NCBI GenBank assembly: GCA_022496805.1
Contig: CM040094.1
Span: forward strand, 9,633,501-9,697,500
DNA length: 64,000 nucleotides
Direction: 5' to 3'
DNA from: Pohlia nutans
Lineage: Eukaryota; Streptophyta; Bryopsida; Bryales; Mniaceae
A model generated the notes under the pieces. The model worked only from the letters and a program-made list of their open reading frames with translations. It searched no databases and had not been told where the DNA came from. Position numbers and translations under genes: made by a program. Of this stretch, positions 6,708-63,464 are shown one piece after another (the stretch's first letter is position 1; every line of letters begins with the position of its first letter).

Positions 6708-7548
6708 CCGTAGTACCATAGCAGGTTTGCCAAAAAAAAAAGTTCAAAAAATCAAAAATGTAAAAAATTATAATTTTATGGGGACAAAAGAATTAAAATA
6801 GAATAAATTATTTTAAAGGTATGTTTTGCTATTTCTAAGTTATTTTGGGCCATTTCTAAACATTGCTTTTCTCCAAAAACCAAAAACCAAGATTTTTTTT
6901 TAGGAACGAACTTTACCATTCAAAAAGTATTAACCCCTAACCGCCCAACCATGCATATTTTGCTTGATGTACAGATTTCATCCGCAGTTTCTCATCCGTC
7001 ATGCACTTTTTGTAGTGTGATTTTTTTACTGAATTTTTTATGGGAAGTTAGCTTCATGTATATGTGATCCGATTGAAAAGGAGACAATTTATGAAAAACT
7101 TATGCCTCATTTCGTGTTGCAGTGTTTCACCCAAAATTTTGAAGATTTTGGTCTAAAAGTGTTCTTGAAAAAAAAAACTCATAAAATCAAGCATCCAAAA
7201 AATCTCCAAAAATCACTATACCTAGAGTACTACATTATAAGCCATCACAACAAATTTCATTCCCATATTGTCAATATCTTATCCGTAATTGAATTACAAA
7301 ATAAGTTTTTATTTTATGTTTCAAAATTTATAGAAAAATATTAGTGATAGCAATCATAGATCTAACCGTATAGATTAAATCTAAATTTCAAAATGTATAA
7401 CTTTTATTCATACATCAAGTTTCAAATATTCATTTTAATTTCATTTTATAATGCATCTTTGCAAAACTGCCCAAATTGGACATAGGTGAGGACGCTTAGG
7501 GGTTAAATATTGTTTGTTTGGTGGCGACCCTGCTATTGTACTACGGTA
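6708..7548. mobile_element. TA-flanked MITE (CCGTAGTAC ends) carrying a nested TTAA element
   Basis: The left end reads TA-CCGTAGTACCATAGCAGG and the right end is its near inverted complement (CCTGCTATTGTACTACGG-TA), giving a TA duplication as in Tc1/mariner MITEs. After removal of the nested TTAA element (6930-7506) the remaining length is about 265 bp, nearly the same as the uninterrupted relative at 25530-25798 (269 bp). The interior is very AT-rich and non-coding. Confidence 0.7.
6930..7506. mobile_element. TTAA-flanked non-autonomous element, 577 bp
   Basis: Begins TTAACCCCTAACCGCCC and ends GACGCTTAGGGGTTAA: inverted termini of about 10 bp flanked by TTAA. The right half (phrases such as TAACCGTATAGATTAAATCTAAA followed by TTCAAAATGTATAAC) is related to the element at 59331-60099. 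No coding capacity. It lies inside another MITE (6708-7548), so it arrived later. Confidence 0.75.
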
Positions 7549-7665
7549 GTAAGATATACAAATCATTAAATTATAGTTATTTTATCAAAAAAGCCGAAGG
7601 TCTCTTGAGTTAGTATTGGGTTTTTATTTTTGGCCAATTCAATTCTCCCTTGAGAGTCCGTCGCA

Positions 7666-7996
7666 TTAACGCCAAAGATGTATGGATGTATGAGATTTTG
7701 GATCACGAACAAATTTGAAGCCTTGTAACTTTCTCATACAACCTCGTATGATTTTCATCCGTCTCCTTTGAAAGCCTATTAAATTCTTTACCAATTACGA
7801 TAAAATCTCTTGTGATGGAGAGCTTTGGATAATATTGGAGAGGCCTTCAACTGCAAGTATGTCAACTTTGTTGGGTAGATTTTATGCTTGCAATGGTCTT
7901 CTCATGTACACCTCACGTACATCTGAGCCATGCAAATATCTACTTTTGAGGCTAGAATCTACTTTTGTGCAAAGGGTTGGTACGTTTAGGGGTTAA
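7666..7996 (-). mobile_element. TTAA-flanked element, 331 bp, inverted copy of 58475-58804
   Basis: Flanked by TTAA at 7666-7669 and 7993-7996. The right terminus is GGTACGTTTAGGGGTTAA; the left is worn (TTAACGCCAAAG). Read in reverse it matches the TIM22-intron copy almost throughout, including phrases equivalent to CCATTGCAAGCATAAAATCTAC and GGCCTCTCCAATATTATC, and differs by only one base in length (331 vs 330 bp). Confidence 0.85.
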
Positions 7997-8065
7997 CATT
8001 ACAAACAAACACTTTATTCACGCCAGCCTTGAAAGAGGTCGGAGTTTCTATCTATCTATCTGCAC
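7997..8065 (+). mobile_element. Extremely 5'-truncated LINE end
   Basis: About 69 bp: the segment CACTTTATTCACGCCAGCC ... GGAGTTTCTATCTATCTATCT is the 3' terminus of the LINE family (the reverse complement of 4452-4500 and 19401-19470). It ends in the same TATC microsatellite and abuts the right TTAA of the preceding element. No target duplication could be confirmed. Confidence 0.65.
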
Positions 8066-8130
8066 CATGTAGAAACAATGTTGCAAAGTCTCACCTCACA
8101 AGCTGTAACACCCTTACGTTATGAATGCTT

Positions 8131-8284
8131 CATAGGAACCTTGTCCAATTTACTGAGAAGTAAACTTTATTGCCAAACTGCCGTTTATGGCAAGTTTTGC
8201 AAAGTGGTTATTCAATTTAGCAAGTAATTACCAAGAATTTACCATAGCCATTACTGCCTGGTAACATAGTCAGGGTTCCTAGTG
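8131..8284. mobile_element. CACTA-like MITE, 154 bp
   Basis: Inverted ends CATAGGAACC ... GGGTTCCTAGTG. The interior (GCCAAACTG, GCAAGTTTTGCAAAGTGGTT, TTCAATTTAGCAAGT, ACCAAGAATTTACCAT) is shared with the 163-bp element in the CLT-A intron (47230-47392), where a clean 3-bp duplication is seen. Here the flanks CTT/CTC are imperfect. Non-coding. Confidence 0.65.
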
Positions 8285-8289
8285 CTCAG

Positions 8290-10565
8290 GCACTTTACAC
8301 TTTGAAATACTGAAAAGCGTCCAGATGATTCAAAAAAGAATAAATAAGAAGAAGAATGCGCTGAGAGATACTGATGAGCAACCAGAGGAACCGTGGAGCA
8401 AAATTTTATTAACTGCGTTTGATGCAAAACTGACCGGATTGGCATCGCCGATCTCGCAGTTGAAGAACAAACTCATTCTCGATGTTTTCTCTTGAATACT
8501 GAAAAACGTCCAGATGATTCAAAAAAGAATAAAAAAAAGTGCGATGACAGATACTGACAAGCAACCACAGGAACGTACCGTTGAGCAAAATTTGATTAGC
8601 CACTAATTAAGCTTAAGTTTGATGCACTAAGCTTGTGTTTGATTCAATGAGATGGTGAAAGAAACGTAAGCAAACTGACCGGATTAGCATCGAAATTGAA
8701 GCGCTATTGAGAACAGACTCATTCTCGATGTCTTCTCTTGAATACTGAAAAGCGTCCGGATGATCCAAAAACGAATAAAAAAGGAATTTAAAAAGAGTGC
8801 GATGACAGATACTGACAAGCAACCACAGGAACCGTTGAGCAAAATGTTATTAGTCACTAATTAACCCCTAAAGGCCCTTAAAAGCCAAAATGGCTTTTTG
8901 CTGTTTCGGGCAGCCTAGATGACGGGTTTAACTTTAGTATTTTGGGTTAAAATTTGGTGTGGGTGTGGTAATACATACATACTATATGTGGTAAAATTTG
9001 GGCAGCCAAATTCAAGTTTTAGAATTTTATTATGCAAAATTTTGTTTTCAAGCCCAACTGGGGCAGCAAAAAAAAAAAAAAATAGTGTTTTTTTGAATTT
9101 TTTTTTGGAAATATGTTTATAATAATACTACTACACACATTTAAAAAAAATCCAAGTTGAAAGTTTTAACAATTTTACATGGGCAGCCTTCAAAATTTAC
9201 AAGAGCAAGCTTCAAAGTTTTTTGTAATTTTACATTTTTTTCTTTCAAAAATTGTCAAAATTTGAGATTTAGGAATTTTTCGATTTTTTTTTCTTCTAAA
9301 ATTCACAAACTCATAGATGTAACTTTTCACCGTTCACTTTTTTACTAAACCAAAAACCTTTAACGTTATTCAAGTTTTACCATATTGTGGTTTTTGAACC
9401 TTCTTCTGGAAAATATTTTGCATGAAGGCCAAAAAAGCATAATGAGTCTCTAAAATTTTGCATGGAGGTGCCTAACTTAGTTTCCTACATGGAAAAAAAT
9501 ATGAGCAAAATGTTTGGGGTAATAATCATCAAGTCCCCCTTTGCACCATTTAGACTATGCCTTTTGGGTAAAGCCCAAAAAAACTTTTGAATCAACTTTG
9601 AATGTTATAAACTCACAAATGGTAAAGATCCAACCGTTGAAATTTAACATGGTGTTAGTGCAAGTAGTTGGGTTGAAGATCTTACGGTTGGAAGTACAAA
9701 AAAAGTTAAAACATATTGAAACATACATCAACTTCCACAAGGTGCTCAAAAATCGCAGTTTTTGGTTTTGGAGGTCCCAAAACACCTTGGGCCTTTAGGG
9801 GTTAAGCTTGAGTTTGATGCACTAAGCTTGTGTTTGGTTCAATAAGATGGTGAGAGAAACGTAAGCAAACTGACCGGATTAGCATCGAAATTGAAGAGCA
9901 ATTGAGAACAGACTCATTCTCGATGTTTTCTCTTCAATACTGAAAAGCGTCCAGATGATCCAAAAACGAATAGAAAAGGAATTTAAAGAAGGTGCGATTA
10001 CAGAGACTGACGAGCAACCAGAGGAACCGATTAGCAAAATTTGATTAGCCACTAATTAAGCTTGAGTTTGATGCACTAAGCTTGTGTTTGATTCAATAAG
10101 ATGGTGAGAGAAACGTAAGCAAACTGACCGGATTGGCATCGAAATTGAAGTGCAATTGAGAACAAACTCATTCTCGATGTTTTCTCTTGAATACTAAAAA
10201 GCGTCCAGATGATTCAAAAAAGTGCGAGTGATGAGAAAAACCAGAGCTCGAACCGTTGAGCAAAATTTGATTAGCCACTAATTAAGTTAAGCTTGAGTTT
10301 GATGCAGTAAGCTTGAGATTGATTCAATAAGATGGTGAGAGAAACGTAAGCAAGCTGACCGGATTAGCATCGAAATCGAAGAGCAATTGAGAACAAACTC
10401 ATTCTCGATGTTTTCTCTTGAACACTGAAAAGTGTCCAGATAATTCAAAAAAGAATACAAAAAAATGAGAAAAACCGTTGAGCAAAATTTTGTTAGCCAC
10501 TGATTAAGTTAAGCTTGAGATTGATACAATAAAATGGTGAAAGAGACGTACACAAACTGACCGGA
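8290..10565. repeat. Degenerate tandem repeat, unit about 200-250 bp, six or more copies
   Basis: Recurring landmarks are ACTGAAAAGCGTCCAGATGAT, then AGCAACCAGAGGAACCG, TTAGCCACTAATTAAGCTTG, GTTTGATTCAATAAGATGG, ACGTAAGCAAACTGACCGGA and CATTCTCGATGTTTTCTCTT. They recur near 8315, 8505, 8750, 9945, 10200 and 10430. Copies differ by small indels. The block ends in the epsin upstream region, where ACAAACTGACCGGATGG merges into unique sequence. One unit is split by the TTAA element 8861-9805. Confidence 0.8.
8861..9805. mobile_element. TTAA-flanked element inserted in a tandem repeat (empty site visible)
   Basis: Termini TTAACCCCTAAAGGCCC and GGGCCTTTAGGGGTTAA are near-perfect inverted repeats. 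Host repeat units elsewhere in the array read ACTAATTAAGCTTGAG; here the sequence is ACTAA-TTAA-[element]-TTAA-GCTTGAG. The sister units are therefore empty sites, and the TTAA is present on both sides only in the filled unit. The 937-bp interior is AT-rich and non-coding. Confidence 0.9.
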
Positions 10566-11300: not shown

Positions 11301-14300
11301 ATGGATCTGAAGAAGGTGTTCGATCAGACCATCCGGGAGCTGTGAGTTTCGGTTGCCTTCTTGTTTTTGCGGTGCATTGTCACGATCTGTGGTTAGTAGG
11401 GTAAGAGCTACGAAGCCGCTAGCTCTTCGGTGAGTTTAGGGCTTGTTGCTTTTCACTGAATCGCGACATGCATCCGGTTTTGTGTGCAGGAAACGGGAGG
11501 TTAATAAGAAGGTGCTGAAAGTGCCCGAGATTGAAGTGAAGGTAAGGATCTATGGCATTTGCGTACTGGAGTGCTCTTTCTTTTAGTTTAGTACCCGTTT
11601 TCTAAGTTGAAGATGGCGGATCTGGAAATGAGAACTGCAAAAACAGCGATGCCGCTCTTGTTTTGTTGGTTTCGAGCCGCCCTGGATGGATTTTTATGAA
11701 TTTGGACACCGCGAAACAGGAATTTCACTCAAGGGGGTTCTATTAGCACATGTGGAAACAATATGACGGATTCTCAAGAAATGTGCAATTATGGAGTTGA
11801 GTGTACGTGAGGCGGTTTGGCATGGAGCATTTTGCTTTTAGGTCTAGCTAGTGAGGAATTTTTCTCATTTTAGTGTTGCTCTACCCCCGGAAATGTAGAC
11901 AGACCTCTGGTACAGACTACTTTACCCCCTTTTTTGGTGGTTTTGGCGGAGATCTCAATTTTGGTGGTTTTGGTAGATATTGGAAGCGACCAGCAACGAG
12001 CCATGGGGTCCGCATGGAACAATTATGGGCGACATCGCTCAGGCCACTCGCAATTTGTACGTACCTCTGGATTGTGCTACCACACTATTATTGACTGTAA
12101 CACACTTTTCATACATTCCAACTCTCTCGTAGTTAATATGGCTAGTCAAATTAATGAGGTCTCAATATGTGTTATGTATTCACGCATATGTTTTACTTTG
12201 CTTCGAATTCACTTGAGTTTCTTGTCTGCATTGCGCAGCAACGACTATCAGATGATAATGACGGTCTTGTACAAGCGTCTGAACGACACGGGGAGCAAAT
12301 GGCGCCATGTCTACAAGGTAGTTCTAATTTCAACATCATGGAAACCACCTTGTCTGTATGAAAATGGCTTTCAGCTGTAAATGACCTTTTTCCCGTTTTC
12401 GAGAGGATTCAAAACATGTTATGAATTGCTGAAGTTCAAAGTAGTAGGGTCCCAATTACAAGCCTAGACTATACTTGAATCAAGAGTATTTTAACTTGAA
12501 GTCTGGAGCTGGTTATGGAAGTATTATTGACTGTGATAGAAACTAGATCATGTATTTGGATGACTTTTCAACACACGGGAAAGGGGGTTCTACTGGAGGA
12601 TCTGACTCTGTAGTGTCTTGCAGGCTTTGACAGTTTTGGAATATTTGGTCGCAAATGGCGCGGAGAGGGTCATTGATGAACTTCAAGAGCACACGTATCA
12701 GATTCAGGTATATATTGTGAACTGCACATTTAACTTCTTTTTGACAACATGAATATCAGAATATTTCTTACTTCAAATAACGGAGTGGTGAATATGCCTA
12801 GATTTATAACTTTACTTCACCTTTGCCTTGAAAAGAAAGGTATCTGAAAAGGATTCCGAAGTAGAGGTTACTTTTGACATGTGCGTCAGATTCCAAAAGG
12901 GACATGGATATTTATGTTCAATTTGGCTTTCCTTGTGTTAACACTGATTTCTTTTTTTTCCTTTCACGATCAGACATTGTGCGATTTCCAATATCTAGAG
13001 AGTAGTGGCAAGGACCAGGGAATCAATGTGCGGAAGAAAGCGCAGACTCTGGTCGCTTTGATCAAAGATAAAGACCGAATCCGTGAAGTGAGGAGCAAAG
13101 CTGCAGCCAATCGAGACAAGTAAACAATCTATAGATTTTGCTTTCCCTATTTGAATCTTCATAAACAATTAACAGGCTCAAATAACATGCATCTAAACCA
13201 AACATCTATCATCAAGCAGCTTTGGATCGAAAGACTTCCATTTGCCCAATTTTATTGATTTTTTAACCCGTAAAGGACCAAGACGCCCAAATGTTTCATA
13301 GCAGTTTTGAGAAGGTCCTATAAATAATCCCTTTGTTCAAATCTATTTAATTTTTTGACCAACTCATACAATGTTGTTCACTGATTGTAGTGATATAAAA
13401 CTTGGTCTCATTTAAATTATGATCACTTGAATTTGACATTTTAAAACCATGAATTTTAGGTCCTTTAGGGGTTAAACCAACACATGCAATGTTCTTTGGT
13501 GTTTCTGGTGCTATATAATTTGGCTCCATCTGAATGCTCTTTTTCACAACAAGAGCAATTGAATTAAAATCTTTTATAATCCCTAAAGGACTAAGACGCC
13601 CTAACTAGGCCTCATGTTTCATAGCAGTTTTGAGTAGGTCCTATGAAAAAATCCTTTTGCTCAAATCTATTTATTTTTTTGTCAATCTAACGTTGCGAGC
13701 TACCATTTCAGGTATCGTGGCGTGTCGAGCACTGGAATGACACACCGATCAAGCTCATACGCAAGCACTGGGGGAGGTTACGGTGACAGAGACAGAGATG
13801 ACGACCGATATGGGGGAAGCCGTGGAGGACGAGATGAATACGATTACGGCGGTGGGAGGAACAGTGGCCGAGATGGTGATCGGTACAGGGACGATGACTC
13901 ATATCGCAGGGACCGAGACAGCGGATCTCGTGACCGGGATGGATCGAAGGAACGTGAAGCTTATGGATCATCTAAGGGAGGTGATCGGTATGGCTCCAAG
14001 GGAGCTGATGAGTATGGCTCCAAGGGAGCTGAACGCTACGAGAAGTACGAGAGCAGTCCTTCGAGTAACCGTGACAGAGGCTACGATGATGATGACAGCT
14101 TTTCTTCCAGGTACTCCCTCCGTCCCAAAGTTAGTCATGTTTGAAATTCATGTTTGAAAGTGCTTATTTAAGTAGGTAAAAAAAAACTTCCTTGTGGCTA
14201 ATTTTATTTAGGTTGCAATGAACACATGCAATGTTCTTCAATCATTCTAGTGACATAATTTGGAACCTTTTTTAATCATGTTTCTTACAATATGATCAAT

Positions 14301-18927: not shown

Positions 18928-19873
18928 TTAACCCCTAAAATTCCTTGACTGTATTCTCACAAAAAACCATGAAAAACGCTGCATTTGAAAGTTGCAGAAG
19001 AAATCATATGTTTTTTTAGTTTTTTCATCATTTAACCGTAAGATCTAATACCCAACTTGAATTTTCATGTGAGCACAAAATTTGAGAGCAGAATGACCAT
19101 TAGATTCTTAGATTATAAGGATCAAAGTTGCAAAAGAAGATTTTTTTCAATCCGGTGACAAATTTGAACTTTAGAAATTAATATCAATTTTTTTGAATGG
19201 GTTAGGAATTCATTGAATGGCAAGGCCATGTTAACAATTGAGTCGGGAATTGAGTTAACCCCTAAGCGTCCCATGGGGATAGTAGATACGTGGTCGTATG
19301 AATGGCATTTGCTATCTACAAGAAGCTCTACATTGGGATCTCAATAACTCATTGAAACGGCATTGATGTAAATTTCAGCTTCTGTGTTGAATTCAAACCT
19401 AGATAGATAGATAGAAACACCAACCCAAAGAAATGGGCCGGTGTGAATAAAGTGTCCGTTCGTAATGTCAATGACCCGATGCCCACGGGACAAAGGGACA
19501 TTGGAACAATACTACTCTCCCTTTTCGAGGATGGACACTATAGTAACCAAAACAAAGTAACAGTAACAATAACAAAGAAATGATGGGTGATTACTAGTTT
19601 GTATAAAGGTATGCTTAGTGTTAAGTTTTATCGCCAAGTCATGAGTTCTTTGGTTGGTTGGTGAAGGGCGTTGTATCACGATTATGTGATCCGGGTTTGA
19701 AACCAGTTGGGCTCGTTGAGCAGTGGTGTGATACACATGGCTTGGTGCTGCTAGTGAATTATTATGGCAGGAAAGTTGTACCAACCAACCGGCCCCACCT
19801 ATCCCCTGAGACAAGCTGAGCTAGTGAATTTGAAGAGTGGCTAGCAGTGGTTTTCACCACTACCACCCCTCTT

Positions 19874-20602
19874 TTAATGTACTACGTCTGTTGGTATTGT
19901 TTGATTATTTTTTATACTTCTTTTATGTAAAAGGATAGATCCGGCATACTGTATGGCAATGGTATTTATTGCTTTGAATGTGTGTATTATGGAGGTTTCA
20001 CACATGTTGAATTTAGTTTCAAGTAGTTTCATTGAGGGGACGTGTGTGGTTCCTCTAGCACAAGTTGTAATGACTATAATGGGATCCACCTTCCAGCCTT
20101 GTTGTATGATATTGTTGATTAGAGGTTGGTATTTAAAAAAAATTCTGCCAATTGTTTCTGGTGGAAATCTGTCGTTTGTGTATGTGAATTCTATAAATTG
20201 TATGGTTAGGTTATCATCGGGGTTTAGAGGCAGTGGGCTTTGGTATGGTAGACCTTTAATGCATAATATATCTAGTTTGAATTTGGCATTACAATGACAT
20301 CTTTGTTGATTACAAGTACATGGTAATAACCATGGAGGAACTGTATTTTCTTGTGGGTTATTGTTGAATGTGCCTGCATTCATGAGAGTGTAGCATCTTG
20401 ATTTATTTGAGGATAATATTAATTTTCTTAATTCCCATACCGCTTTATTGTGTCTTTTGGTTCTTAGTGCGTGTATATGGTGTTGTTTGCATAGTAAAAG
20501 TACATGTAGCCATGTATCTGCATCTTGTGAATTACATATGGGACATGTTTTGGAGGGGAACCTTTGTATGCCGAAAATTAATTGTTTTTCGACATTACCC
20601 AT
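19874..20602 (-). pseudogene. LINE ORF2 C-terminal segment (zinc-binding region)
   Basis: 242 residues open on the minus strand. Near its start CPICNSQDADTWLHVLLLC gives the C-x2-C-x8-H-x4-C arrangement found after the RNase H or RT domain of many LINE ORF2 proteins (histidine in DTWLH). A second Cys-rich patch CTCNQQRCHCNAKF follows. The last 65 residues match the truncated copy at 4452-5135. It is an in-frame fragment of a broken ORF, not a free-standing gene. Confidence 0.8.
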
Positions 20603-20653
20603 GTATTGACCGGTTCTAAATTTTAATATGCTTGTTTTTTGTGCGTCTCTTAT

Positions 20654-22440
20654 TTATGGATTATTCCAAAAGTCATTGGACATTTCGTTGTCTATGATGG
20701 AGTTTGTTGTCCATTTGCTAATGTTGGGAAAGTCTTCTGCCAGTATTTCTAGGTTAGTTTCTCGGTCATGTTTCTTTATGTATTCTTCCGAACATCTAAC
20801 TGGTCCTTTGTCCGGTCTTTTGATACGACCGGGCCTTGTGTCTTTTTGGAAGTAGTACGGTGTGGTATGTGCAAATTCGTATGAACTTGCTCCTTTTTGA
20901 TAGCCTCTTTTCATGGTTCCTTCTTTTGCAAGTTGATCTGCGTGTTCATTCCCTGTAATTTTAGCGTGTGCTTTAACTTTGTATATTGTGGTTGGTTGTG
21001 TTCATTTTTTTAGCATTTTTACCATATCTTCTAATATGGTTTTGTCGGCGTGGTTGTTTTGTTGGGTTGGGTGTTTTAGTTGTGTGTTTAGAACATGTAT
21101 ACAATTGAGGCAATTAGTAAAAATGTGTGCAGGTTGATTTATGTATTTAGTGGTGATTATTGAGAGTGTTTCATGTATGGCCATTAGTTCTGCTCTGAAG
21201 CATGTTTGTAGTCCAGGCAATCTTTTTGATATTTGTACAGTGGGGTCCAACATGGAATGGCGTTTTTGGTTTCGCAGTGAGAAATGTTATAGTACTGCCA
21301 ACTTTGAAAGCCTCCCGAGAGCTCAGAAATTGGTATCTTACCACGAAATTTTTACCAAAGACTCATCTTTAAGTTAATTATATGTATGCCAAATTTCTAG
21401 GCCAAAAGATTCACCCAAATTTTTTTTCTTCAGAATCTACCAACATTGGTAGCTGTGGAAATTTTTTCACTGCTGCCAACTTTGACAGCCTCCCGAGAAT
21501 GGAAATTTTTTTCCTTACTTTGGTTTTTTTTTGGTAGAAACCAATTTGTGTTAGTAATATATGGTAAAAATCTCAAGTCTAAAATATTACTAAAAAGAAA
21601 GATATTAACAATCTACCAACACGTGTAGTTGTGGGATACAATGGGGAAACCATTTCATTCCTACCAACTTTGAATACTGCCAACTTTGAAAGCTTCGCGA
21701 GAGCTCAAAAATTGGTATTTTACCACGAAAGTTTTACCAAAGAAATATCTTTAAGTGAATTATATGTATGCCAATTTCTTTGAATTATATGAATTATATG
21801 AATTATATTTCTTTGGTAAAACTTTCGTGGTAAAATACCGATTTTTGAGCTCTCGCGAGGCTTTCAAAGTTGGCAGTATTCAAAGTTGGTAGCAATGAAA
21901 TGGTTTCCCCCATTGTTTCCCACAACTACACATGTTGGTAGATTGGGAATATCTTTGTTTTTAGTAATCTTTTAGACTTGAGATTTTTACCATATATTAC
22001 TAACACAAATTGGTTTCTACCAAAAAAAAACCAAAGTAAGGAAAAAAATTTCCATTCTCCGGAGGCTGTCAAAGTTGGCAGCAGTGAAAAACTTTCCACA
22101 GCTACCAATGTTGGTAGATTCTGAAAAAAAAAATTTGGGTGAATCTTTTGGCCTTGAAATTTGGCATACATATAATTAACTTAAAGATGAGTCTTCGGTA
22201 AAACTTTCGTGGTAAGATACCAATTTTTGAGCTCTCGGGAGGCTTTCAAAGTTGGCAGTACTAAAATATTTCTCACTGCGAAACCAAAAACGCCATTCCA
22301 TGTTGGATCCCACTGTACATCTGGTTTAGTTGAGTTGTAGATTCCATATCCAGCTTTTTCTTTTTTCTAATGGCCATCATCGGCTTCTTCAGGTGGTAAA
22401 AAGGATCCATCTGTGTTATAGCTGTATTGTGGTAGAAATT
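20654..22440 (-). pseudogene. LINE RNase H domain, split by a foldback element and stops
   Basis: Reading the minus strand: YSYNTDGSF (first Asp) near 22410, then AGYGIYNSTKPD, the 1,078-bp insertion, then VQISKRLPGLQTCFRAELMA (Glu), IFTNCLNCIHVL, and VKAHAKITGNEHADQLAKEG near 20920-20985 with the last catalytic region. Excising the insertion restores one frame across the join. The second catalytic Asp expected in the IFTD motif reads Asn, and in-frame stops occur between the first Asp and Glu and just before the last motif. Confidence 0.85.
21238..22315. mobile_element. 1,078-bp foldback element with TA duplication
   Basis: Two arms of about 510 bp (21238-21750 and 21804-22315) are near-perfect inverted complements around a spacer of about 50 bp containing repeated TGAATTATA. 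Ends are CAGTGGGGTCCAACATGG and CCATGTTGGATCCCACTG, flanked by TA (21236-21237, 22316-22317), as in Tc1/mariner MITEs. Each arm itself repeats GCCAACTTTGAAAGC and TTACCACGAAAGTTTTACC at its outer and inner ends. No coding capacity; a transcript would fold into a very long hairpin. Confidence 0.93.
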
Positions 22441-30990: not shown

Positions 30991-31059
30991 GCCATGGAAA
31001 GCGTGGCCAGCGCCGGCTGGGGTTCCAAAGGTGCCATGACAAGTTTGAGAATTTTTAAC

Positions 31060-33235: not shown

Positions 33236-33239
33236 GAAG

Positions 33240-50544: not shown

Positions 50545-51550
50545 TTAGTACTCTCATTGACCAACCAAACTTGGTCAAATTGTATATTTTTTGATTCTAA
50601 ATAGAATGATATCTTTATTATTTTCGGATTTTATGAAATTAAACATTTATTGTTGAAATGGAAAGAAGTGTCTAGCCCATTCTAGTCATGATCTTGAGAT
50701 TTTTCATTACTCTCATTGATTAGCCAAACTTGGGCAAGATTGTTCTCATTGTATTGTACATTGTTTGATTTTGAATAGAATGATGATTTTATGAAATTAA
50801 ACGTTTGTTGTTGAAACCAAAAAAGGTGTCTTACCCATTCTAGTCATGATCTTGACATTGCCACAAGCTTTTGAAATTTTGGACAAATTTTTTGCAACTT
50901 TTACCTTTTACATCTTGTACTTAGTTGTTCCTATGTGCACAAACTGAAACTAGAAACTGCATTTTGGAACCTAACAGTTGATTGTAGTAGTTTCCAAAAT
51001 ATATTTTTATTGTTTGAAAATATAATATAGTATTTTTTTTGGCACTGTAGCAGTGCTCCATGCATGCAATGGAAGGTGGTCCCTCCAGATTTAAACCACT
51101 CTGACTATGCCATGACATTGGAGTCTGGCTCCAAGAAGCCACAAAAACTAGCCCTACACTCAAGCAATACCGAACCTCCAAAAAGTGAAGAGTGACTGAT
51201 CTTCCATGTTACATGCAACCAATTCCAGTAAAGGACCAATAGAGTGTTGTAGCTATTTCTTTGGATTGCCAGTGGTCGCAATGAAACCTGCCACCACAAA
51301 AGTTGCCATTTCCCTCAACCAATTCTCTTCTGCCAATTGTCTTCTTCCACCTCACTCTCACTCCTTCAACATGCCCTCTCTCTCACTCCGATTCCTGCAT
51401 CTCCTTCGCTCTCCCACATCACTCACCCAGCTCGCAATTCCACGAGGCAGTTTGCAATTCACACACTCAGCTAACCAACGATTCATCACTGCTCCAACAC
51501 TGCATTGCACACCACCATTCCAACCTGGCGCAACTTTGCCGCAATTCACG

Positions 51551-53967
51551 ATGTCTGTGTTTGCGCTTCCACAAGTGACAGGATTCTCACGATGCGTGGC
51601 CCATTCTAGCCACTGGTCACAACTTTACGCGCTTCGACCACAGCCGTGGCAATCTCAAGCGCTCCAGAACAGAACGAACATCAAGCGGATCGTTGCCGCA
51701 TCGAGTGACAAGCATGAAACGAACGACAAGAGGATTGTTGCGGATGCGGATCATGTGTCGATACTGGGGAAGGAGGTGCCGAAGGAGCAATTGGGCGTGG
51801 GCGCCACAGCAACAGCCACCATTCTGTTCTCCGTCACCAACCGGGTGATGTACAAGTTGGCGCTGGTGCCGTTGAAGGATTACCCGTTTTTCCTCGCGCA
51901 GGCGCTGACGTTCGGCTACGTGGTCGTGTACGGCGCGTTTCTGGCGGTGCGGTATCGGCAGGGCATTGTGACGAGGGAGATGCTGGAGTTGCCGAAGATG
52001 CCGTTCGTGGCGCTCGGGGGCTTGGAAGCGCTGGGGCTTGCTGCGGGTATGGCTGCTGCGGCGAATTTGCCGGGTGCGAGTATTCCTATCTTGACTCAGG
52101 TTTGTGAGGAAACCCTAATCTGATTCAACTGCGTTTTTGCTTACAAATCGTTGCGATGTTCTTCTTTGAAACTCCGTTTTCTTCAGATGAAAATTCTGTG
52201 ATGTACATTCTAGAAAAAAAACAGGGAATGCACTGATGAGCTAGAACTTGAGAATTTGTAGAAAAACTGACGTTCAATTCACTGGTGAGCTAGAAAGCTT
52301 TCTTCTTAACTCGTAAAGAACCAAGGATTCATGGTTAAAATGACAAGTTTAACCTGTAAACGTACCAACCCTTTGAACAAAATTAATGCTAGCCTCAAAT
52401 CTAGTTCAAATGTTCATGAGCTATACACGAGAGGACCATAAAATCTATTGAGAGGACCATTGCAAGCATAAAATCTATTCAACAAATTTGACAGAGATAG
52501 ATAAAAACTCCGGTCCTGAAATGGGGCCGACATGAATGAAGTGTCTGTTCGCGATGACAATGACCTGGTGAATGAAGTGTCCACCGAACAAAAGGCCATT
52601 GGAACACAACTACTCAGCCCTATCGGGAATAGACACTCTAGTGACCAATAACCAAAAGAAGTAGCCGATATCAAAGTAACCATGAGCTCATAGTTTGGAT
52701 AGTTTGTTTTGGTATACCACTAAATTTGACATACTTGTAGTTGGAGGCCTCTCCAATATTATCAACCGCTCTCCATGACAAGAGATTTATTGTACTTGGT
52801 AGAGAATTTAATAACCTTACAAAGGTGGCTTGGATGAAAGTCATCTGAGGTTGTATGAGAAAGTTGCAAGGTTTTGAATCTGTTCGTATCTAGTTTCATG
52901 AATCTATCCAACTTTAGACATGAGCTCCAAGTTACCATAGCCAACTATTGCAATCAAACCAATCACCTAAAATTATATCTCAAGTTCACCACATGCCTTG
53001 CCACTATCTCAAAATGGATGTGGGCTATCGCCTCCAAGCCTTGGCTCTATGTGAACTCATCTTAGTCTTAGTTTTGCCTCTTTTGTGACGGCAAAACTAG
53101 TTCACACTCCTTTCTATTTTAGATTCTTTGGAAACCATGCTAGTCTGCTTGGCTACTTTAGTTACGGGTCAGACTCACCTCACCTAACATGTATTCTCTC
53201 TTCTTTTCAGTTAACTCTAATATTTCAGTTTGGGATTATAGCAAGTTATGAAAAATGGAGCCTTTTTGTTGCAGACATACTTGGTATGGCAACTCCTCCT
53301 GTCAACAACAATACTGAAGAAGAAATACACAATGGGACAAATCATTGGATGCATTCTAGTGACAGCAGGAGTAGTAGTGGTGGTCTCCAGCGGCTCCGGA
53401 GGCGACGTAAAGTCGCTGGGAGAATCCGGGCTCTTCTGGCCGCTCGTCATGATCGGCTCCACAGCGTTCTCAGCAGGCGCATCAATCATCAAGGAATTCG
53501 TGTTCCGCGACTCCGCGACGCGCCTCAAGGGAGGCTCAGTGGACATTTTCGTCGTCAACACGTTCGGATCGACAGCGCAGGCGCTTTTCGTGCTCCTCTT
53601 GCTCCCGCTCCTGTCCAGCTTGAAAGGCATTCCGTTCCAGCAACTGCCGAGTTACTTCCGGGAGGGCGCCAATTGCTTCTTCAGCGCCGAGGGGGCTCCC
53701 CTCGTGCCTTTCATTTACGTGGCCATGAACCTCGCCTTCAACATCTCCAGCCTCAGTTTGTTGAAGCAATCTTCCGCCGTTGTTTCTTCTCTTTCCACGA
53801 CGCTCGCGGTGCCGCTGTCCATCTGGGCTTTCACTTTCAATTTGCCGTTGCTTGGAACTCCTTCCAGTTTGCCTCCAGGTCTGTTTCTCGGCGCCGGAAT
53901 TCTTGTCGCTGGACTGGCTTTCTACAATTTCTCGGGAGAGAAGCAACAGAAAGAACTGAAGGATTGA
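51551..53967 (+). CDS. CRT-like plastid transporter, copy B (CLT family)
   Basis: Exons 51551-52099 and 53275-53967 join in phase 0 (ILTQ|TYLVWQ) to give 413 aa. The mature part is about 90% or more identical by eye to copy A; differences include GGS for GGGS and a C-terminus EKQQKELKD. The ATG used is the one where similarity to copy A starts; an upstream in-frame ATG at 51281 would add 90 Ser/Pro/His-rich residues, which could be an alternative longer transit peptide. Predicted plastid-envelope thiol transporter, by family. The intron (52100-53274) carries a broken TTAA element holding a LINE fragment. The 5' exon is GC-rich at the third codon position compared with the AT-rich introns. Confidence 0.9.
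52349..52885 (+). mobile_element. TTAA-type element in CLT-B intron, interrupted and right-truncated
   Basis: The left end TTAACCTGTAAACGTACCAACC matches the 58475-58804 family; segments 52349-52493 and 52722-52885 follow that family in order (CCATTGCAAGCATAAAATCTA; GGAGGCCTCTCCAATATTATC; GGTTGTATGAGAAAGTTGCAA). The interval is a LINE fragment. The right terminus is lost after CTGTTCGTA. It lies within a copy of the other TTAA family whose left end is at 52306. Confidence 0.85.
52494..52721 (-). mobile_element. 5'-truncated LINE end, 228 bp
   Basis: Flanked by AAATTTGACA on both sides (52484-52493 and 52722-52731); the intact relative at 58475-58804 has it once (AAATTTGACATACTTG). The sequence is the LINE 3' end: GAGATAGATAAAAACTCCGG, then TGAATGAAGTGTCTGTTCG, and AGACACTCTAGTGACCA. 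Confidence 0.9.
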
Positions 53968-56431: not shown

Positions 56432-59226
56432 ATGGCGATGGCGCCCAGCGGAGGAGGAGACGATGAATTCAACGCTTCATCTGCTGCAGTAGTGCCACAG
56501 CCACAGGCGGAGGAGCTTAACCCCTGGAGTGTTGGCGGACCCAATCACCCCACCTTCTGCTTCTTCAAAGGCGCTGCGGATGGACTGTCGGGCGGCCTCA
56601 TGGGCTCCGTCTTCGGATTCGGTAATAAATTAATTCATCGTCAAATTCTCTTTCCTCTGGTGCCGTTCATGTCACCATTTCCTTATCAATTGAAGAGTTA
56701 CTTTAGGTTTTAGGGTTTACTTGTGGCGAGAGGATGTGATTGAGGCTCCGAGAAAGTTTGCCTATTGATAAGAATTCTTTCGTTTTGGTCTCTCTGGTGG
56801 TCGTGCCGCTCATGTCAGCCATTTCTTCTTCGGCTTATCAATTGAGGGTTTACTTTAGGTTTTTCAGTTTACATCTTCGAGGTTTTGGTGAAGGAAGTAG
56901 GTTAGTCAATGGCAAGAGAATGTAATTGAGGCTGAGAAAGATTTCCTATTGATAAGAATTCTTTCGTTTTGGTCTCTCTTGTGGTTGTGCCGCTCATGTC
57001 AGCCATTTCTTCTTCGGCTTATCAATTGCGGGTTTACTTTTAAGTTTTTAGTTTAGGTTTTGGTGAAGGAAGTAGGTTAGTCAATGGCAAGAGAATTATT
57101 GAGAATGTAATTGAAGATTTCCTATTGATAAGAATTCTTTCGGTTTTTGGTCTCTCTGGTGGTTGTGTCGGTCATGTTAGCCATTTCTTCAATTGCGGGT
57201 TTACTTAAAGTGTTTTAGTTTAGGTTTTGGTGAAGGAATTAGATTAGTCAATGGCAAGAGAATTATAATTAAGTTTGAGAAAGTTTGCCTATTGATAAGA
57301 ATTCGTTTTGGTCTCGTGCCGCTCATGTCAGCCATTTCTTCTTTGGCTTATGAATTCAGGGTTTACTTTAGGTTTTCAGTTTACGTTTGGTGAAGGAAGT
57401 ACATTAGTCAATGGCAAGAATGTAATTGAGGCTGAGGAAGTTTTGAGTTCTTTCGTTTTGGTCTTTCTTGTGGTGGTAGCATTTTCTTTTGGCGTTTGAG
57501 GGTTTAGGTTTGGAAGTAGTTGTTCAAGATTTTGGCGATCTTTTCCATGCAGTCGAATGTAAATGAGGCCCTTTATAATGCTGAGATTCTGTCTTGATAA
57601 GAATTTTTTCCCCATTGATAAGATATTTTTCCCCTAGGGTTAAGCTTTAAGCAACTGGACTATGAAATGTTCAAAATTTTATATGTGGATACTCGGCGGT
57701 CATTTGTTGAATTTTCAGTTAACCAAATTTGTGTTGCCAATGATGCAGGGTCAGGACTGTTTAAGAAGCAAGGATTCAAAGGAGCATTGAGGGAGGGGGG
57801 CTCGTCTGCCAAGGTTTAACTCCATAGAATTATGCAGTATCTGGAAATTTACCTTCACGTTTGTTCTGTGTTATCTTGACCAGCTTGTACAAGAGCATCA
57901 TCCAATATAGCATATACACTGGCCATAGCTTGAGCGTCTTTTTTTTTCCTTATTCTACACCAGAGGCGATAATGGGGTTTACTTAAGCAATTTTTTGAGT
58001 CACTTTGGGTTTGTGTTGGTCGTGCAGACGTTTGCAATATTGTCCGGTGTACACAGCATTGTTACTTGCGTTTTGAAAAAGGTTCGAGGCAAAGAAGATG
58101 GTAAGCATTTCTTGTTCTAATGCTGCATTTTTGAATTCGATTCGTTAGAATGATTTATTTTTTCAGATTTTGTGCTTACAATGTATATTGGTTGTGCACA
58201 GCTTGGAATGCAGGAATCGCTGGTTGCGCAACTGGTTTAGCACTAAGCACTCCTGGTATGTATTCCTTCATTCCCACTCTTATTTTACCGAAATCGATAA
58301 GCCATGATGCATGTGCATGAACCAGTTGCCAGTTTTGGCGACATGTCGCCAGTTTGGCTGCAAAATTATTTCTCATACTACAAACAGTACGTAATTTGAA
58401 ATAATTTCTTGGATGAAAAAGCCAAATTTCAATCATTTTTTTAAATAAATAAATGAAGTCGCCATATTTAGTACTTAACCCCTAAACGTACCAACCCTTT
58501 GAACAGAAGTAGATTCTAGTGTCAAAAGTAGATATTAGCATGGCTTAGATGTACATGAGGTGTACATGAGAAGACCATTGCAAGCATAAAATCTACCCAA
58601 AAAATTTGACATACTTGTACTTGGAGGCCTCTCCAATATTATCAATAGTTCCCCATTACAAGAGATTCATTGTGATTGGTAGAGAATTTAATAGGCTTTC
58701 AAAGGTGACTTGGATGAAAATCATCCAAGGTTGTATGAGAAAGTTACAAGGCTTCAAATCTGTTCATGATCCAGTTTTTGGACGCTGGGACGTTTAGGGG
58801 TTAAGACAGATGAATAGTGATTTTTAGGTCCAAGATATGGATGAATGAGTGAATATTTGGTTTCAACATAATACTTTAAGTCGCCAGTTGAGCATTTGTG
58901 GAAAAATGAAAAAAATGAGAAAATGACAATGAAAACAGATACTGCAAAAGAAATGACAAGATGATTTCTGAGTAATTGTTCCAGGAACACCTCAAGCGTT
59001 GGCGCAGGGCTGTCTTAGTTTTGGAGCCTTTTCCTTCATCTTGGAGTACATGAATCATTCGCGGCCAGCTCTAGCAGCAACAACTTCACAGTCTAGCAGT
59101 CAATCTCGTACCAACATCAATAATCATCTTCACTTGCATCTTAGTTTACCAGTTCTTGCACCTTTCACACTGCCCCCTATCTCAGGTGGGTTGTCTTTCC
59201 TGAACCTGGGGACAAAGCCCTTGTAG
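56432..59226 (+). CDS. Tim17/Tim22/Tim23-family protein (TIM22-2/-3-like), five exons
   Basis: Exons 56432-56621, 57749-57813, 58028-58100, 58202-58255 and 58985-59226 join without stops to give 207 aa. The core reads [80 protein letters not shown] and [20 protein letters not shown]. This follows Arabidopsis At4g26670/At5g55510 through all four hydrophobic segments with their Gly-rich packing motifs. Those proteins belong to the organelle inner-membrane translocase/PRAT family; mitochondrial or plastid location is unsettled here. The N-terminus (60 aa) is acidic and Ala/Pro-rich, and a Ser/Thr/His-rich C-terminal tail of about 55 residues is longer than I expect for the family. Intron 1 has tandem repeats and intron 4 a TTAA MITE. 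Confidence 0.92.
56622..57500 (+). repeat. Intronic tandem repeat, unit about 150-180 bp, four to five copies
   Basis: Recurring order: TTTGCCTATTGATAAGAATTC, TTTCGTTTTGGTCTCTCTGG, GCCGCTCATGTCAGCCATTTC, TATCAATTGMGGGTTTACTTT, TTTTGGTGAAGGAAGTAGGT, TAGTCAATGGCAAGAGAATG. Starts near 56630, 56750, 56940, 57120 and 57280 with indels. The first copy begins immediately after the exon 1 donor. Confidence 0.85.
58475..58804 (+). mobile_element. TTAA-flanked MITE in TIM22-like intron 4, 330 bp
   Basis: Termini TTAACCCCTAAACGTACC and GGGACGTTTAGGGGTTAA, with TTAA on both sides. The most complete member of the family that includes 7666-7996 and 52349-52885. Non-coding. Confidence 0.92.
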
Positions 59227-59330
59227 TTCTTGTAGGATTAGCTTGTGGTGTGTTTTAACAGGAGCCTTGTTCACTATAAATGGAATGTTTTTGCCTACAT
59301 CCGTTTCTGCTTGTGGAATTTTCTTCTTGT

Positions 59331-60099
59331 TTAACCCCTAAATGTCAGAGCGTCCAGAAAGTGGATGACTAAGGCCCTCCTTCCATGTATGGGTGGCCGG
59401 TCCTCAAAAGGAGGAAGCTCTACCGAAATGGGTGAAACCAAGAGAAGTCGAGAGTATATATTTCAGTTGTACCGAAATGGGTGGAGCATGGGTGGTTCTT
59501 GAGACCTCAATTCTTGTCTTCTAGTGCCTTTCACCCAACTGATCCCCACATGGAAGCCTGCCCTAACAGATTCAAACCCCTCTCACGTTCTCATCAATGC
59601 TTCGATGAAAGTCATCCATTTTTTTGGAGATTCTTCACCAAGTTGTCCTATCTAACGGTTGGAATTAGGCATTATTGACTACATATTTTTCTAAAATTAC
59701 AAATGTAGAAGTATGTCAAGTTGTTGACCAAGCCAAAATTGTATTGATTGTAGTTCAAAAGTGGCCTTGCAAAAATGAGGTCATAGATTCAAAAAACACA
59801 AAAATTTCAAAGAATCACCTCGTTAATAGTATTTGATTTCAAATTCATTCCATCAAATTTTATTCAAAAAATATTAAAATTTTGTTTGTAATCGAATTTA
59901 GAAGGAATTTTTAATTTTAACTTTCAAATCATATAATTAAATATTGGTGATTGTATTAGTGAATCGGACCGTACAGATGAAATCTAAAATTCAAAATCTA
60001 CAACATTCATTTGTATATCAATTCCAAAATATTCTTCTAAATAGTAATTTATGATGTTTTTTTTCAAATTGTCAATTCCCTAATACGTTTAGGGGTTAA
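59331..60099. mobile_element. TTAA-flanked element with nested Tourist MITE
   Basis: Left end TTAACCCCTAAATGTCAGAG, right end ATACGTTTAGGGGTTAA. It contains the complete Tourist-like element 59373-59563, leaving about 575 bp of its own, close to the 577-bp relative at 6930-7506. Confidence 0.85.
59373..59563. mobile_element. PIF/Harbinger (Tourist)-like MITE, 191 bp
   Basis: Ends GGCCCTCCTTCCATGTATGG and CCACATGGAAGCCTGCCC, flanked by TAA (59370-59372, 59564-59566). Shares TGTACCGAAATGGGTGGAG, GAGACCT and TTGTCTTCTAGTGCC with the copy at 61380-61580. Confidence 0.85.
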
Positions 60100-60265: not shown

Positions 60266-60499
60266 TTAACCCCTAAACGTCTGAACATGCTCTGGCGACC
60301 AACAGAATACAGTGTATTTTGGTTGTATTTGGAACGGATCCACACCTTCAATGGATTTGAGTTCAAAAGAGAAGTTGAAATTTAAATTGATGCGGTTCTA
60401 ATGATTGAGCTATTAAGATCCCAATTTAGAGTTTCTTGTTGATAGCAAATCTCAATTATACAACGTATATACTATCTCCATGGGACATTTAAAGGTTAA
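60266..60499 (+). mobile_element. TTAA-flanked MITE, 234 bp (uninterrupted copy)
   Basis: Termini TTAACCCCTAAACGTCTGAA and CCATGGGACATTTAAAGGTTAA. This is the reference for the LINE-split element at 19255-23819, to which it aligns in reverse. Another piece of the family lies at about 62760-62900. Confidence 0.88.
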
Positions 60500-60965
60500 G
60501 GTCAATTTCAACACTTGTGTGGTAAAATAGTTATATTTAGAATTCAGGGTGGACAAAATGCCATTTCTAAATTTTCTAAATTTTGGAAATTTACAAATTC
60601 TAGTGTTTTAGATTTCACAAAGAACCAAAGACATCCAAATAATTTTTTCTAAGATTTTTAGAAATAGTTGTAGAAATTTTTCACATTTTAGACATACTCC
60701 GATTTTTGTCTAATTATTTTAGAACTAACCTTAACGAAGGATACTTCCTGGGTTTGGAATTAACTGTCCTAGTTTCTGGTGTGTTTTGACTTAACGCTTT
60801 TTCTTTTCTTTTTATCCCCAAAAATGCCATCTCAGTACTTGAAAAATGGTCTATCTTTAATATTGGTACGTAGCTTCTTGTTGTCCACCCCATTTCAAGT
60901 AGATAGGGCTCACATTTGAAATATAAAACATAGAACAAATATTGCAAAAGAAAAAATGCCAAAAC

Positions 60966-61379
60966 TAAGACATTTAAGGTTGATTGTCCTAAAACCACCA
61001 ACTTAAGCAATCTGGCCTATTTTTGGCAGTGCTAGATTCGAGAAAAAAATATGTCCGCATTTGAAATAGGTTTTGATGAGGATTGCAAAAATTTGCAACA
61101 TCTAATTCGCATTTGTCAATTTTATACAAAATTCCAAAGTGGAAAGTAACTTGTGACCCAAATCAAACCTCTAGATTTCCCCATGTTCACACCATGTGAT
61201 ACTAACTTTCACTCATAATGATACCCAAAACCACCAACTATTTCTTCGCAATACTTGGTGTGCCATTAGTCTGCTTAAATAGTGAAATTGGTGGTTTTGG
61301 GTCTCAATTGTGGTGGCCCCAAGAAAAGTCTACATGTCATAATTTGGGGGAGGTGGTGGTTTTAGAACATCCTACCTTA
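60966..61379. mobile_element. Inverted-repeat MITE (AAGGT...TAAAACCACC ends), about 410 bp
   Basis: Left AAGGTTGATTGTCCTAAAACC and right GGTTTTAGAACATCCTACCTT are inverted with a few mismatches. The left half recurs, inverted, at 18380-18575. The flank may be TTA but overlaps that of the next Tourist element, so it is uncertain. Confidence 0.55.
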
Positions 61380-61580
61380 GGGCCGACTTCCATGTGGGGT
61401 GGGTGATCGGTGATCAGGCCGTAGAAGAGGGGAGCTCCACCGAATCGGTGAAAATAGGTGAAACTCAGGAGTATAATTTTCCCTTGCACCGAACTGGGTG
61501 GAGTATCGGTGAGTGTTGAGACCTTGTTTCTTGTCTTCTACTGCCTTCAACCGGACCGATCCTCACATGGAAGCTCGCCC
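61380..61580. mobile_element. PIF/Harbinger (Tourist)-like MITE, 201 bp
   Basis: Ends GGGCCGACTTCCATGTGGGG and CCTCACATGGAAGCTCGCCC, flanked by TTA (61377-61379, 61581-61583). Contains direct repeats of a CACCGAAYYGGGTGGAG type motif, as in 59373-59563. Confidence 0.85.
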
Positions 61581-61583
61581 TTA

Positions 61584-62900
61584 TTCCTAGATAGAGGGCG
61601 TATTGGGTGTCTCTACCTTAATGGATAGAAAAGAACCGGACCACCCGCTGGGGGAATCGAACTCCTAACATCGGCAAAAGCGTTGTAGTGATCGAAGCAA
61701 AAGATTATAAGGCAGTTCGAAGAGGTGCCGTCCAGTGCAACATTTACTGCAACCCTGGCCAACATCTCTTCTACTGCCACCTAATTTGTCCCTATTCCAG
61801 TTCATTATTAATATGATACCGTTCGGTGGATTCTCCAAGCTCACAGCATTTCGTACGATCGGTTACAGCTTCCGACACTAAGCGATTAAGTCAAGGAAAT
61901 GTGAGCATTTCCTTGCCCTGTAAGAATTACAAACTAATTAACCACCCACACTGTCAGAATGACTATTCCCTGACCTGGCCCAATCTCAGAATCAATAGAG
62001 TTAACCGAAAAGTCAGCTCAAAGAGGAAATTTTTAGCAAATTCCTCTTGAACTCCTCTTGAACTCCTCTTGAACTCATATTGAAATATAAATAGACCGAA
62101 AACTAGTTCAAGGGTGAGTTGGGAGACAATCTAAAGCAAGCCAGTGTCATTATTCTCCACACCTCGCAATGACTTCCACACCTACCTAAGCTCCAAGCCC
62201 ATGGCCCACAAGGGGACAAGTTATGACACGACACTATTCAACCCAAACATAGCTCAAGGGAGCTCAAAAGAGTGCTTGAAAGAAGGTTGAAAAGGCATAT
62301 TCCAAGGCCTTCTTTTCGGTTAACTCTAATGTATCATCACTCTAATGTATCATCACTCCAGTCGCCCGTTCAATCTCACCGACAACAAATCAATCCACCT
62401 CGGGAAATATCAACACTAGTAGCAGATTTGTCGTTTTTCATTCCCCACTTCGTGAAAACAATGAACAATGGCGGAATATTGTGATTATATTTTTGTCTTC
62501 TTGTGACCAAAAGCACTCACCAACACTAACACAACCCATGTGCCAGGCGTGGTTTCATTCCTATTTTATTTATAGTAAGTGAAAAATGACACATTTCCTA
62601 CTAGTGCAAAGCTGAATGAATAAGCCGGAATTCAACCACAGATAGACAGAGACACACCCCTTCTCGATCTGGTCTACGTGCCCTACCTCAAACAGCGTCT
62701 CACTGGGTTTTGAACTTTATTAATTTAATTAAATGCTGCTTTCATGCAATGCATGCGGTCTTATGGGATGAATTCAATCAACGGGGATAGTAGATACGGT
62801 GGCATATATTTGACATTTGTTGTAAATAAAAAGTTCCAAATTGAGACCCCAATAGCTCATTAAAATCATGTCAATATGAACTTTAATTTCACTTTTGATC
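61584..62900. other. Intergenic, mostly no recognised feature
   Basis: Near 62045-62080 CTCTTGAACTC is repeated three to four times in tandem. At 62760-62900 a partial copy of the 60266-60499 element appears (GGGGATAGTAGATACGG, CCAAATTGAGACCCCAATAGC). Short frames at 61826-62050 and 62272-62484 show no domain. Confidence 0.45.
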
Positions 62901-63464
62901 TTAACCCTTAAACGTACCACTCCTTTGTAGGAAAGTCAAACTACACAATTTACTGAATTTAGCCTTCAAGATTTATCAAAATATATTTTGTAATATTTTC
63001 AATGCATGGAATTGAATGTTTCCTATTAGTCTTGAAATTTTCAGATTTTTTTGATTTAATACGGCGTTTTTAACAAATTTTTAAGTCAAATACTTCAAAA
63101 AAAAATTATTATTAAAAAAAGCTTTAAATTTTAATATATTTTTTGGGAGCAAGTACAAATTTCAATGGAGAATCACATGATATGTTTTCCATAGAAATTT
63201 TTTATTTCAATTTTGAAATTTGAAAGATGAAAATTCTATCATTCCTATGAAGTGTAATTCAAACCTTGACCTACAAAGCTTGCACAAGCAATGAAATACT
63301 CAATAATTGGAATTTTTAAGATTTGAAAAGTGGAGTACAAACTAGACTTTATAAAATTCATTTTCTTAGTTGGGTGTATTAGCAACAAAAGCCAACTTCA
63401 AGATCAAATTTGGGTTTGACCAACAAACATCCAGAAACTGGATGCGTGGACGTTTAGGGGTTAA
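62901..63464. mobile_element. TTAA-flanked element, 564 bp
   Basis: Left TTAACCCTTAAACGTACCAC, right GTGGACGTTTAGGGGTTAA. AT-rich, non-coding. A further right-end-like TTTAAGGGTTAA at about 63545-63556 may be the remnant of another. Confidence 0.8.

Follow-up and report, generated by a model that had tools for sequence, protein, structure and literature searches.

Probable piggyBac-type miniature elements with shared ends at TTAA sites in the moss Pohlia nutans

Transposons of the piggyBac superfamily are bounded by terminal inverted repeats (TIRs) of 12–19 bp that start with CC[C/T]T, as stated in the accessible parts of two descriptions (PMC2872659, PMC10175614). In animals, piggyBac has been studied thoroughly and is in standard use as a tool; the native plant cases that we met are single lines of repeat or survey tables. 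The repeat table of the fern Ceratopteris, in the passage available, lists 1,230 PiggyBac copies occupying 122 kb (PMC6890710), and a survey table, in its accessible part, names PiggyBac among the superfamilies of every group covered, land plants included. According to the available text, insect piggyBac serves marker excision in rice (PMC5505980), and the accessible portion of one P. patens paper names insect piggyBac merely as a tool. Here a stretch of 64,000 nucleotides from the Antarctic moss Pohlia nutans (assembly GCA_022496805.1, contig CM040094.1, positions 9,633,501 to 9,697,500), hereafter the window, is analysed, whose short TTAA-flanked elements are very probably non-autonomous miniature inverted-repeat transposable elements (MITEs) of piggyBac type.

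The P. nutans genome paper attributes 23.68% of the genome to DNA transposons, and the word piggyBac is absent from its main text as far as this was available (PMC9247546). Native piggyBac elements or TTAA MITEs of bryophytes were not found described in the literature searched; most subscription papers lie outside that literature, and the negative result is therefore no proof of novelty. An initial annotation of the window had stated that it knew of no abundant, described family of this kind in land plants. This is not contradicted by the literature searched, although the accessible fern and survey tables do list plant PiggyBac.

Shared ends and TTAA target sites

The terminal sequence TTAACCCCTAAACG is found 16 times on the two strands of the window when one mismatch is allowed, seven times exactly, compared with a mean of 0.03 and a maximum of one match in 100 dinucleotide shuffles and with no match for 200 permutations of its 10-base tail. 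The ends pair inward and bound elements of 213–945 bp, insertions set aside, which confirms the shared-end TTAA elements proposed in the initial annotation. A matrix derived from 19 ends detects 27–28 sites, its 19 training ends included, against an expectation of 0.65–3.2, the figures varying with the threshold applied; the site at 15577, within an open reading frame (ORF), is probably a chance match. TTAA lies directly 5′ of 16 of the 17 window matches to CCCCTAAACG (up to one mismatch), and the only match without it, at 3531, is located within a run of C. Over 23 window ends the core TTAA-CCCCTAAA-n-G-T-C-C-n-A is kept, with the outer T retained in 22 and C as the fourth terminal base (a CCCC start) in 19.

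Both ends are recognisable in nine of the ten elements originally listed, the left end of 7666-7996 having decayed to TTAACGCCAAAG. Imperfect ends with two to three mismatches include the left end of 13263 and those at 24215 and 60499. Without the long interspersed nuclear element (LINE) described below, the ten elements comprise 4,919 bases or 7.7% of the window.

Searches of viral and bacterial contigs with TTAACCCCTAAACGTCC, the consensus end of the window elements, returned two and five matches, respectively, none with an inward partner (up to two mismatches) in the stretch examined, and these were taken as chance matches. A telomeric origin of the heptamer CCCTAAA appears unlikely, the common unit being TTAA-CCCCTAAAnGTCC and no telomere repeat.

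Duplication of the TTAA target, as opposed to its being part of the element, was borne out at two insertion sites. The element 8861-9805 is inserted in a tandem array of ~254-bp units; two unoccupied junctions of this array, at 8601 and 10050, show CACTAATTAAGCTT, in which TTAA occurs once. The element 62901-63464 interrupts a copy of the 60266 family. With the element removed and one TTAA kept, the joined flanks align gap-free across the insertion point with two relatives, 60266-60499 and the inner MITE of 19255, each of which has TCAA there. The MITE 52349, its right end lost, offers no clear empty-site comparison. Elsewhere in the genome, family A copies lie between TTAAs in differing surroundings in eight of eight cases inspected (the window's own and seven others), one pair of flanks having a 301-bp repeat in common. 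The paralogous piggyBac pairs L017/L026, L016/L019, L022/L025 and L023/L033, introduced below, likewise have their boundaries at TTAA.

A third junction of the array, at 10276, carries five additional bases, TTAAGTTAAG. The sequence at 10276-10290, CACTAATTAAGTTAAGCTT, may represent either the footprint of an excision, TTAA-G-TTAA, or a duplication of 5 bp.

piggyBac transposases and their relation to the window elements

A profile search of the P. nutans genome (697,796,988 bases in 332 contigs) with PF13843 (DDE_Tnp_1_7) gave 1305 first-look candidates. The 116 best-scoring of these were scored; all of them exceed the curated cut-off (best E 1.6e-81), and 78 lack an internal stop. Twenty loci, L016 to L035, were fetched. 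Both ends could be placed in 14 and remained unplaced in L020, L028, L030, L031, L034 and L035. Placement was achieved by paralogue comparison in nine cases (L016, L017, L018, L019, L022, L023, L025, L026 and L033) and by pairing alone in five (L021, L024, L027, L029 and L032). Exact TTAACCCCTAAACG is present on at least one end in eight of the 14 end-placed elements, and a CCCT start is seen in L016, L018 and at one end of L017.

The initial annotation had proposed looking for a long member that encodes a transposase between the same ends; such elements are present in L023 (9,103 bp, on C17) and L033 (9,770 bp, on C3), which lie on different scaffolds and carry TTAACCCCTAAACGTCC at both ends. 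They are 98.2–98.6% identical, and their homology begins and stops at TTAA. The TIR of L023 matches at 17 of 17 positions including TTAA, leaving a perfect 13-bp repeat, and the element encodes in an uninterrupted ORF a protein of 547 residues, P0124 (PF13843 E 8e-82); the PF13843 match of L033 is stop-free as well. P0124 aligns with the structure of the T. ni piggyBac transposase (6x67, E 5e-35) such that its segments TIDE, DNFFTS and GVDVSDQ lie opposite TIDE, DNWFTS and GVDTLDQ, and the acidic residues of these motifs are what we take to be the piggyBac catalytic aspartates. The C-terminal tail of P0124, CKYCHGNTRTTLICPQCGDVSLHLGECFYKSH, is rich in Cys and His and matches Zn_ribbon_6 weakly (E 0.0069); comparable Cys-rich tails are found in many of the 20 fetched ORFs and are absent in L016 and L035.

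A second close pair is formed by L017 and L026, with 99.4% identity over 5,038 aligned bases and homology that stops at TTAA on both sides. The piggyBac ORF of L017 (2426-5434 of that locus) encodes 1,002 residues, about 500 of them ahead of the transposase domain, and the L026 ORF is 98.6% identical to it. Between transposase groups identity reaches at most ~77% (where values above 60% are given), and the ends of the lineages differ, namely CCCCTAAACGTCC, CCCTTAACTGCC and CCCCTCAAGGCC.

A sample of 60,041 bases taken at 18 other loci, the fetched elements themselves excluded, contains 14 ends (up to one mismatch, one of them exact), whereas 60 permuted patterns average 0.02. The density of ends in the window is thus seen again in this sample. 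If it were typical, a rough extrapolation from the sample, which adjoins piggyBac loci and family A copies, would give a total for the genome of the order of 100,000 ends. For family A, 40 genome copies were scored at 94–100%, the window's own counted, and the eight best-scoring ones are 95.2–98.2% identical to their own consensus; the 4,676 first-look candidates are a candidate number only, pointing to a copy number that may be very large. Copies of the 6930 MITE are present in L034 and L035.

The MITE ends were compared with those of the piggyBac elements over positions 20–60, inside the terminal repeat and without gaps, alongside 6,228 null comparisons. The left end of 6930 agrees at 30 of 41 positions with the left end of L023 and with an L029 end, and the right end of 58475 agrees at 29 of 41 with L023; in either case none of the 6,228 null comparisons is as high. 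Moreover, 6930 left matches the right end of L029 at 44 of 49 positions. Between the right ends of 6930 and L023, 21 of the outermost 22 bases agree, TTAA counted, where the best of 347 other window TTAA sites reaches 16. Lower scores are obtained for 62901 and 59331 with L023 (20 of 41, null fraction 0.0018), for 13263 with L022 (22 of 41, null fraction 0.00016 among 360 comparisons) and for 8861 with L018 (score 28 compared with 27 for the 99.9% null, the best of 20 × 22 comparisons outside 6930). These four links are hints only, since they were picked among hundreds of comparisons. At positions 21–37 a subterminal palindrome is found (6/6 at the left end of L023, 7/7 at the right end of 62901, 5/6 at the left ends of 59331 and 6930), which is weak at the right end of 58475 and missing at that of L029; it is suggestive only, because shuffled sequences occasionally score as high.

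These observations support the interpretation of the initial annotation, which combined the TTAA sites with a piggyBac or Sola transposase. In the proposed mechanism, piggyBac genes in other parts of the genome would supply the transposases that bind the ~13-bp terminal repeat CCCCTAAACGTCC together with subterminal sequence, excise the MITE and join it into TTAA, duplicating this site. Larger window elements arose by other insertions (LINE, foldback, other MITEs) into MITEs. We infer this binding and excision (from homology to piggyBac), the assignment of a particular transposase to a particular MITE and, judging by sequence, a transposition that is recent or ongoing.

Composite elements and further features of the window

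The element 19255-23819 consists of a ~233-bp MITE and a ~4.3-kb insert, which is flanked by the 14-bp repeat TGAATTCAAACCTA. Rejoined at this repeat, the MITE flanks align to 60266-60499 (80% of 230). The whole is in turn enclosed by the outer MITE 18928-24215. The gene within the insert (19402-23719) matches PCIF1_WW (PF12237, E 6.5e-8); besides this PCIF1_WW-like domain, the insert encodes RNase H and zinc-finger domains. Among 26 homologues of the protein, eight were scanned, with PCIF1_WW detected in all eight and RNase_H in five. The upstream part of one relative, used as a query, retrieved 19 proteins including itself; RVT_1 is present in 15 of these, one of which, P0115, combines RVT_1 and PCIF1_WW in a single protein, and the insert is therefore assigned as a LINE. 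It is outside the TTAA system. As candidates for autonomous elements, the 4.6-kb and 5.3-kb window elements were rejected, both being MITEs that hold this 5′-truncated LINE.

A PCIF1-like domain, which belongs to a methyltransferase family, looks unusual inside a non-LTR retrotransposon, and the titles from one literature search contain no description of such a case. Contigs from ENA and JGI contain relatives of the LINE. In the window, a near-perfect foldback of ~1.1 kb interrupts it at 21234-22319, with arms that are 94% alike and TGTACA at both edges (21234, 22314). A 15-nt identity, ATGGGATGAATTCAA, connects 62763-62777, the decayed left end of a MITE, with 23714-23728 at the 5′ junction of the LINE.

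The interiors fall into about six groups, A to F, in a low-stringency comparison (Table 1). The initial annotation had spoken of several unrelated families, which is somewhat overstated, since 6930 and 59331 have 336 bp in common at 68% and 8861 and the outer 18928 element 167 bp at 63%. Coding remnants were sought in 8861-9805 (six frames) and 59331-60099 (four frames), with no Pfam match above cut-off. As to the copies described as damaged, those at 47458-47686, 52306 and 52349 are indeed end-lost or remnant MITEs (families C, C and A), while 4240-5167 could not be upheld, as its borders are without such ends; sequence similar to family C at ~4.1–4.4 kb and the lone end 3926-3939 are found nearby.

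Table 1. Coordinates, strands and family membership of the elements in the window
Feature	Position	Strand	Remarks
Single end, family A type	3926..3939	-	3874-3939 similar to 58740-58804 at 71%
MITE, family D, TTAA on both sides	6930..7506	+	both ends match piggyBac element L023
MITE, family A, one end decayed	7666..7996	-	90% to 58475-58773 over 300 bp
MITE, family E, within tandem-array unit	8861..9805		empty-site test
MITE, family C	13263..13475		relatives 13576-, 47458-47686, ~4.1-4.4 kb
Outer MITE, ~723 bp own sequence, split by 19255-23819	18928..24215		
Inner MITE, family B, ~233 bp own sequence, LINE-split	19255..23819		
5′-truncated LINE, (CTAT)n tail	19402..23719	-	14-bp repeats 19388-19401 and 23720-23733
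Family C MITE, left end lost	47458..47686		
Family C MITE remnant adjoining CRT-like gene exon	52306..52348		
Family A MITE, right end lost	52349..52896	+	52349-52493 similar to 58475-58611; 52717-52896 similar to 58597-58777
MITE, family A reference copy	58475..58804	+	right end matches L023/L033
Mosaic element	59331..60099		left, family A end with ~198-bp insert 59367-59564; right, 59733-60068, family D
MITE, family B, uninterrupted	60266..60499		
Family B MITE with decayed left end, interrupted by 62901-63464	62763..63556		
MITE, family F, nested	62901..63464		second empty-site test
Family A members	7666, 58475, 52349, left of 59331		
Family B members	inner 19255, 60266, 62763-63556		
Family C members	13263, 13576, 47458, 52306, ~4.1-4.4 kb		
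Family D members	6930, right of 59331		
Family E members	8861, outer 18928		
Family F member	62901		merely weak matches to 59331 and 8861

Further repeats are seen in the window. A repeat of ~200 bp occurs at 59367-59564, inside 59331, and at 61376-61581, the two being 72% alike. A CRT-like transporter gene is duplicated in tandem (46242-49177 and 51200-54069), and both gene copies retain family C remnants at matching places (47458-47686 and 52306-52348). At 29900-34150, long inverted minisatellite arrays (arms of ~495 bp, 80%) flank tandem arrays of 194 bp and 53 bp.

Alternative explanations and comparison with known systems

The initial annotation had considered that a single transposase may mobilise many MITE families. 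The end match with L023 that families A and D share speaks for this and suggests, at the sequence level, that these two use a transposase within the L023 group; that one transposase moves all families is unproven, because several piggyBac lineages with related ends exist. We lean slightly towards a picture in which each of these lineages has its own MITEs and CCCCTAAACG is an ancestral terminus with little cross-mobilisation. This would agree with the limited identity between transposase groups and their differing ends as well as with the weak links of 8861 to L018, a member of another lineage, and of 13263 to L022, but it has to accommodate that A and D, despite different interiors, match one L023 end (29 and 30 of 41) and that 62901 and 59331 also show some agreement with L023. 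Quite apart from the number of transposases, the 19255-23819 element could itself be an autonomous transposon mobilised by its PCIF1/RNase H protein, given that the gene covers most of the element and the protein family is conserved; with a flanking 14-bp repeat and a (CTAT)n end on the insert and an uninterrupted relative at 60266, we attach practically no probability to this.

It is very improbable that a Tc1/mariner-like transposase with TA duplication and a strong preference for TTAA is responsible: the site is palindromic and the empty sites fit TA equally well, but the outer T is held in 22 of 23 ends, and full-length elements with these ends encode piggyBac transposases. Just as improbable are Kolobok- or Sola-type elements. 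TTAA duplication taken alone would suit them, being a property of Kolobok according to the accessible part of PMC9587614, but the Kolobok ends given there are of the type 5′-RR..YY-3′ and those of the moss CC..GG, on which ground Kolobok membership was rejected; as for Sola, for which no search was made, these ends are borne by piggyBac elements.

A number of points weigh against the assignment of the window elements to piggyBac or limit its reach. The intactness of the 116 scored loci is unrepresentative, because they are the best-scoring of 1305 candidates, and the zero PF13843 matches in 14 control genomes are uninformative about plants. Five of the 14 end placements derive from pairing alone in a genome rich in such ends; for L021, L027 and L029 the pair chosen is not the top-scoring one and was picked as the three loci agree. 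None of the fetched piggyBac ends matches the left end of 58475 (family A) past the TIR. For families B, C, E and F, the secure tie to piggyBac is confined to the terminal 13–15 bp, and their parents are not among the 20 fetched loci. Owing to the palindromic nature of TTAA, the empty sites by themselves are compatible with a TA duplication plus fixed outer T and A. The published CC[C/T]T start is found as CCC, with C as the usual fourth base, and at 5.0–9.8 kb the moss elements exceed the 2.2–3.7 kb of coral piggyBac elements given in the available part of PMC2872659.

The reading of the window elements as piggyBac-type MITEs can be extended to a broader proposal, which we hold tentatively and rate a little short of even. 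From the sequences, a native piggyBac lineage may be active now or until very recently, perhaps as the first well-defined land-plant case, and its transposase may drive several MITE families that differ in their interiors but have an end of ~48 bp in common (TIR and subterminal motif). Lineage and MITEs together may account for much of the 23.68% of DNA transposons. With TTAA-flanked pieces in the window and many intact-looking transposase genes in the genome, some in elements with exactly the same ends, piggyBac, which is familiar above all from animals, appears to have proliferated in a land plant. From its sequences this appears to be a new, abundant and recently active-looking land-plant case of a known superfamily. 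A moss with 116 scored loci, near-identical copies and a big MITE population offers a natural plant system for the entry and spread of piggyBac, for how MITE families share a transposase and for whether a plant-adapted tool for seamless excision exists. Bryophyte transposon libraries may under-report the superfamily.

With the piggyBac superfamily, as represented by T. ni (6x67), the moss elements share the TTAA duplication, the CCC start, the short TIR, a transposase with homology across the catalytic domain, in which the acidic motifs align, and a C-terminal segment rich in Cys and His. They differ in their land-plant host, in their size (14 end-placed elements), in the fourth base and in the ~500 residues that precede the domain in the L017 ORF. 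The land-plant PiggyBac of Ceratopteris is listed in the available passage without structure, ends, MITEs or an intact transposase (PMC6890710). The published piggyBac-type ends CCCTTTAACGCCC and CCCCTCAGTGTCC each agree with CCCCTAAACGTCC at 10 of 13 positions, and nine published coral-type ends match CCCCTAAACGTCC better on average than permuted tails do (p 0.018, a weak test). One published coral piggyBac-type family likewise starts with CCCCT, according to the accessible text (PMC2872659). As far as the same text describes them, the coral CMITEs and the Acropora elements AmiPB1-6 resemble the moss elements in TTAA duplication, CCC starts, MITE families with different ends and a terminal matching that is strongest outermost and fades inward (PMC2872659). 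Whereas the CMITEs are ~100 bp long with one conserved interior, the moss MITEs have several interiors and 213–945 bp. Within the parts of the literature available, no published system comes closer to the elements of P. nutans than the coral CMITEs together with the Acropora piggyBac elements.

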